Source: Candidatus Aminicenantota bacterium (GTDB taxonomy: Bacteria; Acidobacteriota; Aminicenantia; Aminicenantales; Saccharicenantaceae). From it: a stretch of 64,000 bases of DNA. Within the stretch, counting starts at the first letter, position 1. Each line of letters starts with the position of its first letter. A program made the translations under genes and the position numbers. This document shows positions 9,229 through 20,141 of the stretch, in pieces. The stretch lies in the NCBI GenBank assembly GCA_017999365.1, contig JAGNLW010000001.1:1000239-1064238 (forward strand). The letters run 5' to 3'. The notes under the pieces were generated by a model. It ran no database searches. It was not told the DNA's origin and saw only the letters and a list, made by a program, of their open reading frames with translations.

Positions 9229-9401
9229 GCCGATGGATCGCCCCTAATACGCTGGTGGGGGAATTGATCTGCGATCTTCCCGGGGGTCCATCCTCTTATG
9301 GCCATCAACGGACAGTTCGAGCGGCTAACTGAAGTGAGCGAGCGATGGCCCCGGAGTTGCGAATATCAATTGAAACGGCCAGCTTCATATTCCGTAACAG
9401 T

Positions 9402-9899
9402 TTATTCGCCGCATTTGAATTCTATAGTCCTTATGAATGAGCCGTTGCCTAGATTCTCTGCCGGTATTCCTTCTAATCGTGCGATGATGACTATTGTTTC
9501 GCAACCGGTGCCATAAACGATGAAGGGCAGGAATAGCCTATCGCCGTCGTTTACCCATTTATCTAGCAGGAGCGTTTGATTTAGAAGGCATTTTTCACCT
9601 TCCTTAACCTCAAGAACAAGACGTCCTCCCGATATTTCATCGCTTGGTTCAGCGATCTCAACCGATAGCCATAAGGCCCCGGATGGCTCTCCTGCTTCAC
9701 CTTCGCCGATGATCGTGTTCCAAAGCTCGTGGCGTTTCCCGTCCAGCAAATCATATTTGGATATTTCTCCAGATGATTGATAAAAGAGATGTGCGTGCAT
9801 TGCAATAATTGAATACCTTTCTGGGGCCCTCTCCGTTGAGCTACAAAGTAACGAAAGAAAAAGAAATGCGAAACTGGCTAAGTGGACACGTTTTTTCAC
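9402..9899 (-). CDS. Exported 165-residue protein, candidate immunity partner of the Rhs tip
   Basis: No family recognised. It begins with a signal peptide (MKKRVHLASFAFLFLSLLCSS) whose C-terminal LLCSS could be a lipobox, so the product is periplasmic or a lipoprotein. The mature part is beta-rich (ALWLSVEIAEPSDEISGG, RLVLEVKEGEKC) with Cys residues near residues 104, 134 and 163. It starts 31 nt after the stop of the rhs gene on the same strand and shares the A+T-rich composition of the rhs tip: 26 of 60 bases are G/C in 9541-9600, against 40 of 60 in the rhs core at 12421-12480. Position, export signal and composition suggest an immunity protein against the peptidase tip; this is inference. 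Confidence 0.65.
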   Translation of the reverse strand: MKKRVHLASFAFLFLSLLCSSTERAPERYSIIAMHAHLFYQSSGEISKYDLLDGKRHELWNTIIGEGEAGEPSGALWLSVEIAEPSDEISGGRLVLEVKEGEKCLLNQTLLLDKWVNDGDRLFLPFIVYGTGCETIVIIARLEGIPAENLGNGSFIRTIEFKCGE

Positions 9900-9930
9900 A
9901 ATCCCTCCGTTAGCAAATAAGGACGAAGCT

Positions 9931-12900
9931 TCATTTCTTAGAGCTAGTCAGGTCTTTTTCAGCACCCCCGAAAACTCGCCAGGCTGCTTGTTCAGTGAAT
10001 ACGCCATACAAAATCCATAATTCGGTTGAACTGAGTCCTGTTATGCCAAATGCCAAATAATTTGTAACAGTCATTGCAGCGGTTTTAATGAGGGCAGCTC
10101 TATCCCCATTTGGCTCAGAGTAAAAATGAACGGGATCCCACTTTTTACTTGTTGGATCTGGCGAAAAGTCCATTCCGCTCTGAAGGCCAGAAAGTCGGGC
10201 AGCAATAAGCACGAGCATCTGAGAATCATCATCCAAACTGTTCCAGTTAATATCAATCGCCCAACCTGCGGAATGAAGGCTGTTTGGTACTTCTGAATTT
10301 ATATTTTTCTGATGAGCAATTGATCTATAAGCACTCGTAATTCGAACATCTACGCCTAGGTTATGGCAACAACTTATAAACTCACCGACATTATCTGCGA
10401 AATGTGAATCTAACCAAGAATGAACGGTTTCCGCTGTTCCACCTTTGGCGATCCCGGGCAAAGCAACGCGCACAAGTTCTCTGCCATCAGGATCCAGGCA
10501 AGACAGTGGATTGTCTGCACAATATGAATAATAATTCATGCCGATAGTATTATAAATCAGACTATTCGGCGGCCTTATTGGGTCAGGAGAAATAAACCTA
10601 TAAATATTCCTGTCATAGTACCTGGCCCCAAAGTAGTCGAGCTGTGACTCTGCGTCGCGCTCCTTGCCCGAGAACTTGAGCTGGGGGTCGTAGGTGCTGA
10701 CCAGGGTTTGCTGGATCCCTCCGTAGGGGTCATGAACCGCCGAATAGACCATATTTCCGTTCTGGTCGGTCACGACGCGGGTCGTATTGATCTGATCGGG
10801 GGTGTAGTAGAGAAGGCGCGCGCCGACGTGTTCGTACTCGGCGACGAGCCGGCTGCCCATGTAGATGTAGTCCTTAAGCAGTGTCCCGAAGACATCGTAA
10901 ACCTGGAGGAGCTTGCCGTCAAAGGAATAGATGTAGAAGTTCCCGACCGGAGAGGCCGACATAATCTTGGCCGTCCCGGACTGGGGCCCGTCGGACAAGC
11001 CGGCCTTACTGACCGAGCCGGCGACATCTCTTGGGACCTCCTGAGTCCGGTCTGCTAACGTCTCGATACCCTCCCCCTCCCGCTCGCGCCACAACTCGTC
11101 CACGAGACGGCTCCGGGAGACCAACTGGCTTTGAGCCGGGACCTGCCCCATGCCGATAGAGAAGCTCTCCTCGCTGACCCCGAAAGGCACCCGGCCCGGT
11201 AGGCTCAGCCGCTTGGTCAGGACGAGTTCTTTGGTTCCGTCCGTTCGGATGAACAACGATCGGAATCCGGTCGCCGAATCGGCCTCATCGATCACGGCTG
11301 TGCCGAACGTCAGGACCGCCGGGTCCATCACCTGAGATTCAGGCGTCCACCAGCCGCCCGGGGCAGGGAAGGTCCCGGTCTCGTAGCCTTCGAACGAGTC
11401 CTTCGAGAGCGTCTGGGAGACATCCTCGCCGGCGGTCTTGGGCTTCAGGACGAGATCCTTGTACCGGGCCTCGAAATCCTCGAGCCGGACCTCGTGCCCG
11501 GCCGTCCGGACCATGACCTCGGGCGACGCGCCCGCCCAAGCCGTCTGGACAAGGGGGATTCCGTCGAGAACCGGCCTCCCGTCGAGAACGAGCGTCGCCG
11601 ACTGCGCCAGAGGCCGGAGAACGAGCCCGATCGTGTGCCACCGGTCGAGGAACGCCTCGAGCGCGCCTGCGTCCGCGGCGGCGGCGTTGAGCTTTACCGT
11701 CGCCGCTTGCCTCATCGGGTCTCCCGAGAGCGTCAGCTCGGCCGTCCAGGCGCTCATGGTCGGAAGATCCGGGAAAGAGGCCCTGATCGAGATCGCGGGC
11801 GAGCCGGTCTCGACCTCGGACGGGATCTTGAGCTTAAACCCGACCATGAGCGTCTCGCCCTGGGCGGGCCGGCCGTCCGCCGCCGAGACCCGGATCAGGC
11901 ACAGCCCCGAGACCTCCGGAGGAACTAGCCAATCAAAGTTTCCCGAATTAGGGGCCCGGTCGGCAATCGTCCGGAAGCTCGTCCCGCTGTCCGCGGAGTA
12001 CTCGAGGCGGACCTCCTTCGTCTCCGGCGCGCCCCGCCAGGCGACGGTCTGGAACGAGCCCGCGGCGAGAACATCTCCCTCGGCGGGCGAGGTTATGACG
12101 AAGGCCGTGTCTTCGGCGATCTTATTCGGCCCGATGATGCCGGTCCCGGTCAGGGTGACGTCGTAGGGATTCTCGCTCCAATCGCTGTTGACGATCGAGA
12201 AGGAGACCGTCTTCAGGCCCTCGGAGTTGGCCGAGAAGCGGACGACGAAGCTCCTCGTGCCCCCGGGCGCGATGGTGACGGGCGGCGTCTCGGGATACGC
12301 ATAGGGTTGAGAGATGACCTCGAAGCAATCGGTGTCGGGGCCCTCGAGGACGACGACCGGATCGCCGGAGAGAATGAGGTCCTTCTCGCCGAGATTGCGG
12401 ATCGTGAAGGTCTGGTCCCAGTACTGGCCGATCTCGATCTCGCCGTAGTCCCAGTCGTCGCCGTCGGGGGCCTGGAGGATCTCGATCTCGGGGGCGTAGT
12501 TCCCGCAGAGGGTGATCTCGTAGTCGGCTTCGTCGACATCGGTCGAAGGGACGTGGAGGAGGGCGACCTTGTGACCGGCGCTCCGGGGATGGAAGCTGAC
12601 GGCGAGGCTCGCGCTCCCGCCGGGAAGGACCGGCGTCGAGGGCTGGACCAAGTCGAAGTTGTCCTCGGGATCGTCCGTGATCGCGACCGATCCGAGACTG
12701 AGGTTCGCGTCGCCGAGATTCCGGATGGTTAGGGTCTCGTCGAAAGTTTGGCCCACGGCGGCCGTGAAGTAGGCCTCGCCGCCCGAGGGGATCGCGACCT
12801 CGTCGTGCCTGATGTCGACCTCGGGAAGCGGCGGCAGGGCGGAGAGCCGCAGTCCCCGGTCGTCGTAGAGGTACTTGCCGATGACCGCGCCTGAGGTGTT

Positions 12901-15219
12901 TTGGATGTATTGAAGCCGGTTCTGGGCGTCCCAGTAGTAGATGTTGCCGCCCGAGGTGAGGAGGTTGCCGCGAGGATCATAGTAGAATCCCTCACTTTGA
13001 GGAACCTGGTTCTTGTTATTGTAGGTATGAGGGAAACCGATCCCGCCAGTGGCATTCAGCATGTTCCCGTACTCGTCATACTGGTAGGAATATGTTGAGG
13101 GGGAACCTGAAGAATAAGCCGCCGATATGAGGCGATCGAGAGCGTCATAGCCGAAGCTCGCAGTCAAGGCCGGCGCGGTCGAGGCGATGCTCAGGATATT
13201 CCCCGCGCCATCGTACTCGTAGCCGGCGTCGTAGAGCATCGTGCTCCCGCGATTGAGGGAAACCGAAGTCGGCATCCCGGCATTGTTGTAGCTCGCCGAA
13301 TAGGCCGTCCCGTTCCCGAAAGAGATCGAGGCCGGCATCTTATTGGGGCCATAGGACGCGCCGTTCACGACGGCCGATTGGTTGAAGCTGACCGACGAAG
13401 GCGCGTCGAGGGAGCTATGGCCGACCGTGACGCCCGTGTTGGGATTCGATGACTCCTTCCAGCCCGTGGGGTTGTTGTTCCAATCGTAGGAATAGACCAT
13501 CGTCTTGGGGGCAAGCCCCGGGATGGTGATCCTCTCCGAAGTCAGCCGGCCGAAGGGGTTGTAGACGATGTTCTCCCGCCGCCAGCCGGTCGTGGAGTCG
13601 ACGATCGATTCCACGCGGCCGGTGACGCTGTTGAAGGTGTAATTCACGACGTCGATCGGGCCTCCGGTCGTGGCCGTCGTCCGATAGAGCCGCCTCGACA
13701 GGTCGTAATCGAAGCCGAGCGTCGAGCCGCCCCATGTCTTCGAGGAGAGGAGATTCTCGCTGTTATAGGCGTAAGCGATGCTCCCGGTTTCCGGGTGGCT
13801 CTCGGTCAGGACGTTGTCGAGGCCATCGTAGGTGTATGTGTGCGTCCTTGTCCCGTTGAAGACGACCTGGGTCAACCGGCCGGCGGCGTCGTAAGAGTAG
13901 AGGGCGGTCTTGCCCATCGCGTCGGTGACCTGGGTCGGAAGCCCGGGCAGGTCCCCGTAAACATAGACCGTCGAATGGCCTTCGGGATCGGTCACCGTCT
14001 TGGCCGTCCCCTGATACGAGATCGTCGTCTCCTCGCCCCGGGGATCCGTTATGCTCGTGATCTGGCCTGCGGCGTTATAGGCGTAGGTATAGACGTGATC
14101 ATCATCGGTGCTCCCCTTGCTTTCGGTGAGCACCCGGCCCTCGGCATCCAGGGTCCGCTGTGAATGAAGCGTTAGGGCGATCCCCTCGCCCTCTTCGGTC
14201 GATCCAAGGTCCCGGCCCATCCCGTCCCAATACCTGGTAACCGTGTTATCGCCGTTGATCGCGTCTTCCCGGGTGACGGTCATGTGATTCGCGCCGGACG
14301 GCCAATCGTAGTGGATGTCGTTGTAGTTGCCAGTCAGTTCGATATCGGTGATGCGGCCGAGGTTGTCATAGGAATAGACCATGATTCCCTCGTCCTGGCG
14401 CTTTTCGCCAGCGACAGAGCTGTCCCGGTAGTTGATGGTCCTAGTTAGGCGGGAATAATCGGGGGCCGATGAACTGTTCTGGACGCCATAATTGTAGCCG
14501 GTCGTTTCCTTCTCGGCGACTCCCGGAGGATCGACTTTGACGGTCACCGTCGACGGGTTGGGCGACTCGTATTCGTAATCCCAAGTGAGATAGGTCGAGC
14601 CGGTCTTCCAATGTGTGACTTGTTTTAAAGCACCCCATTTGCCTGTCTCCTCATAATAACTGGTGTCCATCTTTTTCACGAGCTGGCTCTGGCTGGAACG
14701 GATGGCCTCCTGGCTTATGAAATCCATCATGTGGCGACTTTTGAATCCGGGATGAGCCTCATAATAATAAATGAGATAGGTCGCGTTCTTCAGGGGGCCG
14801 GACGCGCCAATGTAATTGTTGATCCTCGTCGGCAGGCCGTAGCGTTTCACTTCGGTCCGCTCATAGAGATACTCGGTCTTGCTAGAAGCGTCCCCTATCC
14901 GGTTCTCGATGACGGAGGAGGCCAGTGGCCCCTTGGCCGCGCCCATGTTCGTCCCGAGCACCATCCAGTTCGTTGAAGAGATCTGCTGGTAGGTCCATTC
15001 GTAGGAATCCGAGAAACTCCCGTCCGCGGCCTGATGAGAGGCGATGAGCCCGATCTTCCAGAGCGTCGAGGTTGTATAGGCGTTGTAGGTGGCGCTCGTG
15101 GTGTATACAGGGCCCTGGACCTGGACCGTTCCCATCGCGACGCCCTGATAGGTCGGATACGTGAAGTCCCAGACCGCGGCTGTTACGCCTGGATCGGACA
15201 CGATCCGCTTCTGGCTCAC
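9931..15219 (-). CDS. RHS-repeat protein, main part: YD repeats, Ig-like insertion, RHS core and M15-type peptidase tip
   Basis: 1762 residues from a GTG at 15219; the true gene starts at 16197 and is interrupted by an amber codon. Residues 1-795 are YD repeats (for example YDAAGRLTQV, YTYDGLDNV). Residues ~797-1420 are an insertion with two choice-of-anchor-D-like domains (FDETLTIRNLGDANLSLG, WDQTFTIRNLGEKDLILSG), a Kre9-like Ig fold and a LamG-like stretch. The RHS core resumes near 1420 and ends with FISPDPIRPPN and LDPDGREL (1575-1582). The tip has ITSAYRS, SLHSAGWAID (His1649, Asp1656) and DPVHFY (His1698), which match the zinc ligands of M15 D,D-peptidases. It is probably an exported polymorphic toxin attacking peptidoglycan (inference). 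Confidence 0.88.
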   Translation of the reverse strand: MSQKRIVSDPGVTAAVWDFTYPTYQGVAMGTVQVQGPVYTTSATYNAYTTSTLWKIGLIASHQAADGSFSDSYEWTYQQISSTNWMVLGTNMGAAKGPLASSVIENRIGDASSKTEYLYERTEVKRYGLPTRINNYIGASGPLKNATYLIYYYEAHPGFKSRHMMDFISQEAIRSSQSQLVKKMDTSYYEETGKWGALKQVTHWKTGSTYLTWDYEYESPNPSTVTVKVDPPGVAEKETTGYNYGVQNSSSAPDYSRLTRTINYRDSSVAGEKRQDEGIMVYSYDNLGRITDIELTGNYNDIHYDWPSGANHMTVTREDAINGDNTVTRYWDGMGRDLGSTEEGEGIALTLHSQRTLDAEGRVLTESKGSTDDDHVYTYAYNAAGQITSITDPRGEETTISYQGTAKTVTDPEGHSTVYVYGDLPGLPTQVTDAMGKTALYSYDAAGRLTQVVFNGTRTHTYTYDGLDNVLTESHPETGSIAYAYNSENLLSSKTWGGSTLGFDYDLSRRLYRTTATTGGPIDVVNYTFNSVTGRVESIVDSTTGWRRENIVYNPFGRLTSERITIPGLAPKTMVYSYDWNNNPTGWKESSNPNTGVTVGHSSLDAPSSVSFNQSAVVNGASYGPNKMPASISFGNGTAYSASYNNAGMPTSVSLNRGSTMLYDAGYEYDGAGNILSIASTAPALTASFGYDALDRLISAAYSSGSPSTYSYQYDEYGNMLNATGGIGFPHTYNNKNQVPQSEGFYYDPRGNLLTSGGNIYYWDAQNRLQYIQNTSGAVIGKYLYDDRGLRLSALPPLPEVDIRHDEVAIPSGGEAYFTAAVGQTFDETLTIRNLGDANLSLGSVAITDDPEDNFDLVQPSTPVLPGGSASLAVSFHPRSAGHKVALLHVPSTDVDEADYEITLCGNYAPEIEILQAPDGDDWDYGEIEIGQYWDQTFTIRNLGEKDLILSGDPVVVLEGPDTDCFEVISQPYAYPETPPVTIAPGGTRSFVVRFSANSEGLKTVSFSIVNSDWSENPYDVTLTGTGIIGPNKIAEDTAFVITSPAEGDVLAAGSFQTVAWRGAPETKEVRLEYSADSGTSFRTIADRAPNSGNFDWLVPPEVSGLCLIRVSAADGRPAQGETLMVGFKLKIPSEVETGSPAISIRASFPDLPTMSAWTAELTLSGDPMRQAATVKLNAAAADAGALEAFLDRWHTIGLVLRPLAQSATLVLDGRPVLDGIPLVQTAWAGASPEVMVRTAGHEVRLEDFEARYKDLVLKPKTAGEDVSQTLSKDSFEGYETGTFPAPGGWWTPESQVMDPAVLTFGTAVIDEADSATGFRSLFIRTDGTKELVLTKRLSLPGRVPFGVSEESFSIGMGQVPAQSQLVSRSRLVDELWREREGEGIETLADRTQEVPRDVAGSVSKAGLSDGPQSGTAKIMSASPVGNFYIYSFDGKLLQVYDVFGTLLKDYIYMGSRLVAEYEHVGARLLYYTPDQINTTRVVTDQNGNMVYSAVHDPYGGIQQTLVSTYDPQLKFSGKERDAESQLDYFGARYYDRNIYRFISPDPIRPPNSLIYNTIGMNYYSYCADNPLSCLDPDGRELVRVALPGIAKGGTAETVHSWLDSHFADNVGEFISCCHNLGVDVRITSAYRSIAHQKNINSEVPNSLHSAGWAIDINWNSLDDDSQMLVLIAARLSGLQSGMDFSPDPTSKKWDPVHFYSEPNGDRAALIKTAAMTVTNYLAFGITGLSSTELWILYGVFTEQAAWRVFGGAEKDLTSSKK

Positions 15220-15225
15220 GACCCG

Positions 15226-16197
15226 CTAAATAAGGGGGGTGGTGTTGAAGTAGAACGTCTGATCAGCGTAGGAGTATTCCAGCACTCCGCCGTAGCTCGT
15301 CGTCATCCGGGAAAGCTCATAGCAGCTCGCGCTGCCGTCGAGATATTCGAAGGTTGTCGGCGGGAGCATGGGCGGCGTGAAGCTGTCGAGCCGGTGATAG
15401 CCGTTGGAGTAATTGCCCACGGAGTAGCTGAAGATCCGGTCGCTGCCATTGGCATCCGTGACCACGATCTGTGTCAGCTTTTTGGGCGTCCCCGAGGCAA
15501 CGAACGTGACCACGCGGTCCGTGCTGTCGGTGATCGTCTGGATGGTCGGCAGTCCCGGGTCGTAGACGATATCGATATGATGGCCGTAAGGATCCTCGAT
15601 CCGGGTCACGAGGCGGACGGGATCCGAGGTGCCGTCGGCCCGCGTGATCGTCGCCGTCGCTCCGAAGGTCCAAACGACGCCGTTCTTGAAGTAGAGCTTC
15701 GGATAGATGAGTGGCGGCGCGCTCGTCTTGTCGTACTTCATGAAGTCCCGGGTCAGGCAGATATTGGAGCCCAGGCCGTAGTTATTCGGGTAGGCCGTTT
15801 CGAGCCTCCCGTCGGGGAACTCGATGACGGGGGTGCTCGAAGAGTAGTTATGGACCATGCCCATGTGCATCGTCCAGCCCAGGCCGACCCAGGATCGATG
15901 ATAAGCCTGGACCGAGGGATTGCCGGACTGGCGGTCCTTGAGGATCTTGGAGTTATAGACGCGCCAAACCTCGACATCGAGCCCGTTGGGGCCGGGGAGA
16001 TAGACATCCCGGTACCGGAGGGTGACATTCCCGGTGAAAAGGTCGATGTTCTCCTCGGAAAGCGATCCGAAAGAGCCATGGCCGGGGATGATCCCGGTCC
16101 GGTCGAAGATCCCGCTTTGGGCCTGGAGCAGGGTGCTTCCGGTCCAAACTAAAAAAATGAACAGGATGAGCAGAAGAGCCTTCAGGTTCTTGATCAT
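15226..16197 (-). CDS. RHS protein, N-terminal part ending at an in-frame amber codon
   Basis: Starts at ATG 16197 after a G-rich ribosome-binding site, with the signal peptide MIKNLKALLLILFIFLVWTG and cleavage near LQAQS. It continues with the usual start of secreted RHS/YD proteins (IDLFTGNVTLRYRDVYLPGPNGLDVEVWRVYNS). The frame ends at TAG (15226-15228), yet the codons immediately after it (CGG GTC GTG AGC) continue in the same frame into the 1762-residue part. A CAG-to-TAG change explains this: the full protein would be about 2085 residues. The possibilities are a fresh nonsense mutation, a sequencing error, suppression, or re-initiation at the GTG at 15219. The last would yield an unexported product. 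Confidence 0.82.
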   Translation of the reverse strand: MIKNLKALLLILFIFLVWTGSTLLQAQSGIFDRTGIIPGHGSFGSLSEENIDLFTGNVTLRYRDVYLPGPNGLDVEVWRVYNSKILKDRQSGNPSVQAYHRSWVGLGWTMHMGMVHNYSSSTPVIEFPDGRLETAYPNNYGLGSNICLTRDFMKYDKTSAPPLIYPKLYFKNGVVWTFGATATITRADGTSDPVRLVTRIEDPYGHHIDIVYDPGLPTIQTITDSTDRVVTFVASGTPKKLTQIVVTDANGSDRIFSYSVGNYSNGYHRLDSFTPPMLPPTTFEYLDGSASCYELSRMTTSYGGVLEYSYADQTFYFNTTPLI

Positions 16198-16571
16198 GAT
16201 CCCCCCCTTTTGCCGGATAAGGATGCGAGCCGTATCGGACAAGTTCTCTTTATATGGCCGATTTGGGGCGAGGAGTGGTGATGGGACGTAACTGCTGAAG
16301 GGCATACAAAATCGGCCTTATGGTGAAGAACCGCAAACTTAATGGGCGCTTCTCCACAAATAGAAATGTTCTGAAGGAGCCGAAGGCCCGTCCGGACGAC
16401 CGATGCTATGATCGCCGCGGTAGGTAGGTAGGTAGGTAGGTAGGTAGGTAGGTAGGTAGGTAGGTAACTAAAAGAAAATGAGCGTAGATTCAGTAACGCG
16501 CCCATCAACAAACCCTTCAGATGAAAGTATAGAATGGTGATTCCTGAAGGTCAAGTTGAATGAGATTCCGG
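16198..16571. other. Divergent intergenic region between rhs and pyrK
   Basis: Apart from the GGTA microsatellite and the pyrK promoter at its right edge, no gene or RNA is apparent. On the minus strand a weak TTGTCC/TATCCG pair with a 17-nt spacer just upstream of rhs could serve as its promoter. Confidence 0.5.
16419..16466. repeat. GGTA tetranucleotide microsatellite, 12 copies
   Basis: Twelve perfect GGTA units about 220 nt upstream of the rhs start and 165 nt upstream of pyrK. It is not inside a supported gene. Length change here could alter promoter geometry for rhs. Confidence 0.95.
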
Positions 16572-20020: not shown

Positions 20021-20052
20021 CCGCCGGATGATCCCTCGCTCGAGCAAAAAAG

Positions 20053-20081
20053 GGGGACACGTACCGAAGGTACATGTCCCC
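20053..20081. repeat. 29-bp REP-like palindrome, copy 5
   Basis: Arms GGGGACACGTACC and GGTACATGTCCCC around GAA. Copy 6 follows 18 nt later; each is preceded by an A-rich run (CAAAAAA). Confidence 0.93.
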
Positions 20082-20099
20082 CATCTCGGGCAAAAAAAA

Positions 20100-20128
20100 G
20101 GGGACATGTACCGAAGGTACGTGTCCCC
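20100..20128. repeat. 29-bp REP-like palindrome, copy 6
   Basis: Arms GGGGACATGTACC and GGTACGTGTCCCC around GAA, just downstream of the secreted-protein gene that ends at 20142. Confidence 0.93.
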
Positions 20129-20141
20129 CTGGAGATCGGGG

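Follow-up and report, generated by a model that had tools for sequence, protein, structure and literature searches.

A predicted M15-type peptidase tip on an Rhs protein and its candidate exported immunity protein in a Candidatus Aminicenantota bacterium

Does an Rhs protein of a Candidatus Aminicenantota bacterium end in a cell wall-cutting toxin, and is the small exported protein encoded behind it the matching immunity protein? The locus lies on the minus strand of a 64,000-nt stretch (positions 1,000,239 to 1,064,238 of contig JAGNLW010000001.1, assembly GCA_017999365.1), here called the window, meaning the whole stretch analysed. An earlier note made from the letters alone (the original prediction) had proposed that the Rhs tip is a peptidoglycan peptidase of the M15 type with an exported immunity partner. 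Our analysis makes it probable that the tip is an M15-type toxin that would cut the wall peptides of rivals and that the next gene, 31 nt further downstream, codes for an exported protein giving immunity to it. The system is of an ordinary kind, an Rhs tip plus immunity gene, with one good independent synteny for the immunity family and an unexpected set of repeats at the Rhs 5' ends. What it offers is a toxin-immunity pair on an Rhs scaffold that can be put to the test, with an immunity candidate whose family has no model in Pfam, NCBIfam, or PHROG.

The Rhs protein and its M15-type tip

Behind the LDPDGREL sequence at the end of the Rhs core, the minus-strand frame ending at 9931 continues for 180 residues that hold ITSAYRS, SLHSAGWAID, and DPVHFY, just as the original prediction had described. 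Counted from LDPDG, the tip comprises 188 aa (9934-10497, minus strand, as are its motifs). ITSAYRS (10321-10341) corresponds to the M15 N-terminal motif, and its Arg is invariant in 17 aligned sequences. SLHSAGWAID (10252-10281) would supply the first His and the Asp of the zinc site, with S, H, G, A, and D invariant among 17 aligned M15-type sequences. DPVHFY (10120-10137) aligns by profile position with DYPHF of Ply500, and we take it to hold the catalytic-acid position and the third zinc-ligand His. When the tip was shuffled 200,000 times, the pattern S.H..G.A.D followed by a later [DE]..H arose in 12 shuffles. A profile built from six Rhs tips only (A4) matches the M15 endolysins Ply500, LysB4, and LysECD7 (E 4.5e-13), SxHxxGxAxD is kept in all nine aligned Rhs tips, and the tip is predicted to fold like M15 peptidases and Hedgehog domains. 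Motif, profile, and predicted fold agree in supporting the membership in M15 that had been proposed. The tip is a predicted peptidase, and its cleavage of wall peptides would be of the L-Ala-D-Glu endopeptidase or the carboxypeptidase type.

The tip also occurs on other Rhs cores. A region search with the long Rhs frame returned, besides itself, three Rhs proteins that share the tip (49, 40, and 36% identity), and the tip query gave five matches in three of 99 related genomes, all at Rhs core ends: the window tip, the tip of a paralogue in the same genome (C3), two tips in genome G090, and one in G019. As background, 63 Rhs core ends were present in 22 of the 99 genomes, so that 5/63 carry a match. 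The C3 tip is a diverged M15 tip with SLHELGLAID and EPWHWY; the G019 tip is without an acid three residues ahead of the last His, and its neighbour is a third kind of exported protein. A further M15-like Rhs tip in G097 (HPQGWALD, HIHW) has no Pfam match. The A4 profile matched 6 of 142 genomes of the class and 30 of 396 genomes of the phylum; of 30 phylum loci, 25 were read and show the motif pattern, two of them with an Rhs core (C3 and G019) and 23 with none.

Among 16 other tips of the lineage that were scanned, Tlde1 scored above the cut-off once and DUF5675 three times above and once below it (L018, L079, L089, and L103, by Pfam), and nine gave no match. The tips of L127 and L128 contain GGC/SSGC motifs that by eye resemble those of L,D-transpeptidases, and the tip of the third full-length Rhs of this genome (L009:8272-9260) has the zincin-like motif HELAEAY and no Pfam match. 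Some of these tips look wall-active.

The scaffold is read in two minus-strand pieces. The long frame (9931-15219, 1762 aa) contains YD/RHS repeats (PF05593, E 2.4e-21), an Ig-like insert, the Rhs-associated core domain (TIGR03696, 10483-10731, E 6e-18), and the tip. Choice-of-anchor D/HYDIN-type Ig domains lie within the Rhs core (12139-12762; NF012200 E 1.1e-20, PF22544 E 2.7e-11) and, together with a further insert, occupy 11100-12762, with the YD repeats on one side and the Rhs-associated core on the other, an arrangement common to the C3 paralogue and to proteins P0015 and P0016. The N-terminal piece (15226-16305, likely start ATG 16197) carries a Sec-type signal and DUF6531 (PF20148, E 1.1e-5); signal peptides are called here from hydrophobic N-termini and not by a dedicated predictor. 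The Pfam scan of the scaffold found no PAAR or VgrG domain.

An A+T-rich module (9301-10650) comprises the core tail, the tip, and the candidate immunity gene. Its G+C content is 0.449, a value reached by 1 of 1253 segments of equal length across the 64 kb; among segments that do not overlap it, the lowest value is 0.566. The original prediction had placed a sharp composition switch at the tip: the 23 G/C among the 60 bases of 10261-10320 hold, whereas the change itself sits near position 10650, still within the conserved tail of the core and some 150 nt ahead of LDPDGREL. When 150-nt segments were compared with the C3 paralogue at the DNA level, identity was at least 0.80 in 15 of the 37 that cover 16200 to 10651 (range 0.51-1.00), and all eight segments beyond 10500 are at 0.35-0.52. 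The tip thus varies while the core is conserved, with long core stretches near-identical between the two paralogues and the tips unlike. The divergence beyond 10500 is what a module swap would leave, although the core insert has diverged as well.

The exported neighbour

After a gap of 31 nt from the Rhs stop, a GTG start preceded by a GGAGG box opens a gene for a 165-aa protein with a hydrophobic N-terminus (9402-9899, minus strand), in agreement with the small, unknown, signal-bearing protein described originally. No Pfam, NCBIfam, or PHROG match was found for it. Fourteen relatives were aligned with it, and the 15 members of this family (family A) matched no named family, apart from a 0.017 match of two members to the Stannin linker. 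A sequence search with the 165-aa protein returned 13 proteins including the window copy itself, and a family A profile search returned at least 206, none with a Pfam domain among the best 120 of 206. Named sources include Candidatus Aminicenantales, Terriglobales, Geobacteraceae, and Pyrinomonadaceae. In the structure model of the 165-aa protein (pLDDT 71.5, pTM 0.64), a signal helix is followed by an Ig-like beta sandwich.

The independent synteny comes from locus L016 (QEVM01000072.1, titled Proteobacteria bacterium). An SpvB/TcdB-type Rhs there ends in a part that scores as Peptidase_M15_4 (PF13539, 41.9 bits vs. a cut-off of 25), and a 159-aa family A homologue with 32% identity to the 165-aa protein overlaps the Rhs end by 14 nt. 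This homologue was the sole relative among 59 pattern stretches of that collection. Because it was found with the immunity query and not with the tip, the M15 tip upstream of it is an unselected observation. The distance between the organisms is only sampled, by a neighbouring protein taken for Mfd with 53% identity over its conserved part. The test rests on few loci, L016 being the one among the contigs of the search and profile relatives whose surroundings were read. Since a homologue takes the same position behind an M15-type tip in another bacterium and on a different Rhs scaffold, the 165-aa protein is a plausible cognate immunity protein.

Other M15 tips have other partners. The C3 tip is followed by a small exported protein that differs from family A and defines family B. 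Members of family B follow both G090 tips and stand two genes behind the M15-like tip of G097. At the G090 contig end (L017:1-2891) there are two tandem modules of core tail plus M15 tip, each followed by its own family B protein, and the second tip is a displaced core-tail-plus-tip module. Of these tip-linked loci only G097 came from the immunity query; that query also found G002 and G470, where family B occurs without an M15 Rhs tip, in G002 with no Rhs core match at all and in G470 as the end of a larger protein.

Tetranucleotide repeats at Rhs 5' ends

A (GGTA)12 microsatellite (16419-16466) lies upstream of the Rhs start, and five tandem GGTA units were found at no other place in the genome sequence searched. 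Both other full-length Rhs genes of this genome are preceded by (GGAA)8-9 tracts; a (GGAA)9 array at 11-47 of the window lies upstream of an Rhs gene outside it (L009:8756-15121, minus strand). Arrays of 5-10 tetranucleotide copies are found inside the signal-peptide codons in G015, G021, G024, and G026, and six copies precede one Rhs of G006. Overall, perfect arrays are present in the leader or the signal-peptide codons at 8 of the 11 Rhs 5' ends examined, these 11 being the genes out of 63 with long frames and the 5' end at hand, and G015 and G026 being near-identical and not independent. Besides the two in the window, the arrays of these eight are at L008:13441-13474, L122:433-472, L123:2545-2564, L124:7329-7356, L125:7185-7204, and L127:438-461. 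There is no array at the Rhs 5' ends of G091, the second Rhs of G006, and L016. Other arrays (unit 4-7, at least five copies) were absent from 406,761 bases in 26 stretches, with a 3.3-kb overlap between two of them. Since such arrays mark 8 of the 11 Rhs 5' ends and are otherwise absent from the roughly 407 kb, phase-variable expression from the upstream tract is likely.

A three-frame reading found an upstream open frame of 103 aa (16194-16505, minus strand). The repeat lies within this frame, and the frame's TGA overlaps the ATG at 16197, the likely Rhs start. Because of this overlap the copy number would set translational coupling, and repeat-controlled coupling is possible in the window; in the two paralogues of the same genome a comparable leader frame ends just past the array. 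Our literature search found no on-point description of repeat-driven phase variation of Rhs or polymorphic toxins, and two Neisseria reviews, in the portions available, treat polymorphic toxins and phase variation apart. If the repeats do switch the toxins, Rhs-mediated warfare between bacteria would come under the control of contingency loci. A different repeat lies elsewhere in the window (20039-20129), where two 47-bp imperfect direct repeats have a unit holding GGGGACA and TGTCCCC arms.

Competing explanations and comparison with known systems

As we see it, the Rhs protein would leave the cell through Sec with its shell enclosing the tip, and the tip would be set free towards a neighbouring cell and hydrolyse the stem peptides there. 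The toxin would pass through the producer's periplasm, so the immunity protein, a predicted Ig-like beta sandwich, would act there by binding and blocking the tip. Tip and immunity gene likely move as one cassette, and the upstream tetranucleotide tract likely makes expression phase-variable.

A number of observations weigh against this toxin-immunity reading. For the tip, the AF2 alignment (A6) behind the predicted fold includes 11 M15 rows that are not Rhs-fused and may pull the model. The single tip sequence used as a query matched no PDB sequence and stays under the Pfam cut-offs (VanY at 22.7 of 25 bits, M15_3 at 20.0 of 23.2); PF13539 is precomputed on P0015, P0016, and P0017, and its cut-off is exceeded by the L016 tip, with the window tip just below the cut-offs. 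For the swapped module, the core insert has also diverged from the C3 paralogue, in parts as much as the tip, with DNA identities of 0.51-0.67 over 12000-10951 and 0.51-0.54 over 11250-10951. For the neighbour, the original prediction had argued that an M15 tip acting in the periplasm foretells an exported partner, and the control spoke otherwise: at 22 distinct sites with a parsable core end from 37 sources, a gene with a hydrophobic N-terminus follows 15 of 17 non-M15 Rhs tips as well as 5 of 5 M15 tips. The background for this measure, which also picks up membrane proteins, is 9 of 37 greedy frames of the window. C3 and the third Rhs of this genome (C4) were in the control run and remained unparsed (C3 was read by eye), and G097 was outside the run; the gene next to C4 encodes a 147-aa lipoprotein-like protein. 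Because 15 of 17 other tips show the same feature, M15 chemistry does not foretell an exported neighbour, and we dropped export as specific support. The result suggests instead that exported neighbours are the rule of the lineage: as the Rhs carries a Sec-type signal, the toxin would cross the producer's own periplasm, and exported immunity would be general.

The remaining points bear on three rival explanations. The first is that the toxin is decaying, the interrupted Rhs no longer yielding an exported toxin and only the immunity gene being kept. As assembled, the Rhs gene is not one open frame: an in-frame TAG (15226-15228, minus strand) splits the piece with the Sec-type signal and DUF6531 from the frame 15219-9931, so that the secretion signal is present yet cut off. 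The site is uninterrupted in the C3 paralogue of the same genome and in P0016. Against decay, the 1764-codon frame behind the TAG has no further stop and the zinc-site residues are intact, and a lone stop seen in a single assembly could reflect an error or a rare variant and leaves the tip chemistry uncontradicted. The TAG is either real or an assembly error; with one stop codon in the gene as assembled, this copy may be silent at present. We regard decay as rather unlikely. The second Rhs of G006 is likewise split by an in-frame stop, at a different position (L128:2238-2240).

In the second rival, the 165-aa protein is not the immunity protein; it belongs to a general family of exported Ig-like proteins and was carried along with the module. 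Twelve family A loci had their surroundings read, and only the window and L016 are behind an Rhs tip, the other ten not. Nine distant members from the phylum are not behind Rhs tips, and six of these nine (L031, L032, L034, L035, L037, and L038) stand directly behind a gene which we take to be serine-carboxypeptidase-like. In G003, of the same genus, a homologue with 43% identity belongs to a run of four small exported genes (L007:6006-8689). The 19 kb of sequence read there hold no Rhs core, and the tip query found no M15 tip in G003. The window tip, moreover, is nearer to the G090 tips (35%), whose partners are of family B, than to the L016 tip (28%), whose partner is of family A; tip phylogeny thus fails to predict the partner, and the congruence of tip and immunity trees that we expected was not seen. 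The immunity layout drawn by the original prediction therefore stands in part: a homologue does lie behind an M15 Rhs tip in L016, whereas the trees disagree and homologues occur without the tip, in G003 and among the nine distant members, in part an outcome that the original prediction had itself named as counting against it. Family A genes without Rhs tips fit stand-alone immunity genes and also an exported family with other uses. What speaks against the rival is that the L016 homologue overlaps an M15-tipped Rhs gene, that the A+T drop spans both the tip and the 165-aa genes, and that the G003 four-gene array has the look of the heterogeneous polyimmunity loci that PMC3482391 (Zhang et al. 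2012) describes in its available text. On balance this explanation appears improbable.

The weakest rival, to which we give very little credence, is that the M15 tip is no toxin and remodels or anchors to the producer's own wall: M15 outside Rhs is common in the phylum (23 of 25 motif loci have no Rhs core) and the protein has a Sec-type signal, but paralogue tips differ on a shared core, G090 has tandem core-tail-plus-tip modules with their own partners, and most tips have a small neighbour of their own, which together make the layout of polymorphic toxins.

Beyond this locus, the toxin-immunity reading leads to a broader and more tentative one, a serious possibility that we do not yet favour: the Sec-exported Rhs proteins of the lineage could form a phase-variable cell-wall arsenal, in which toxins switched by tracts in the leader or the signal-peptide codons carry swappable wall-active tips (M15, Tlde1/L,D-transpeptidase-like, and others), each with its own exported immunity protein, here from a new Ig-like family.

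Comparing the locus with known systems, the M15 fold, predicted for the tip, and the zinc-site motif are common to the tip and to Ply500, LysB4, the L,D-carboxypeptidase BaLdcB, and VanY/VanX; to our knowledge none of these has an Rhs shell or an immunity partner. Our literature search found no report of M15 chemistry on an Rhs tip. M15 domains are known from predicted antibacterial type VI secretion system (T6SS) effectors, in Neisseria VgrG/LysM loci (PMC10210955) and in WHIX effectors (PMC12135965); in the available portions of both papers the context is T6SS and no Rhs-M15 fusion was found, whereas the M15 tip here is Rhs-fused. According to the available text of PMC13183296, an Rhs tip and its immunity gene can be common to species on different Rhs proteins, and VanY there refers to resistance genes. 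A VanY-like toxin with a coupled immunity protein is described in a cystatin-linked polymorphic toxin system (PMC12419801, in part); that toxin goes with a cystatin-like packaging domain, and the tip here follows an Rhs core. The closest body of comparison is PMC3482391, whose available text describes polymorphic toxins of Sec/type II secretion system (T2SS) type with RHS repeats, RHS toxins with an L,D-peptidase domain, polymorphic toxins with NlpC/P60 domains, and the Imm65 immunity family with signal peptide and lipobox; M15, VanY, D-Ala-D-Ala, and 'phase variation' were not found in that portion of the text. Unlike those systems, as far as that portion goes, the tip here is of the M15 type and the candidate immunity family is without a Pfam, NCBIfam, or PHROG match. 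In common with the toxins described there, the present locus has a signal peptide, RHS repeats, a variable C-terminal tip that would be the toxin, and an adjacent small gene as the immunity candidate.

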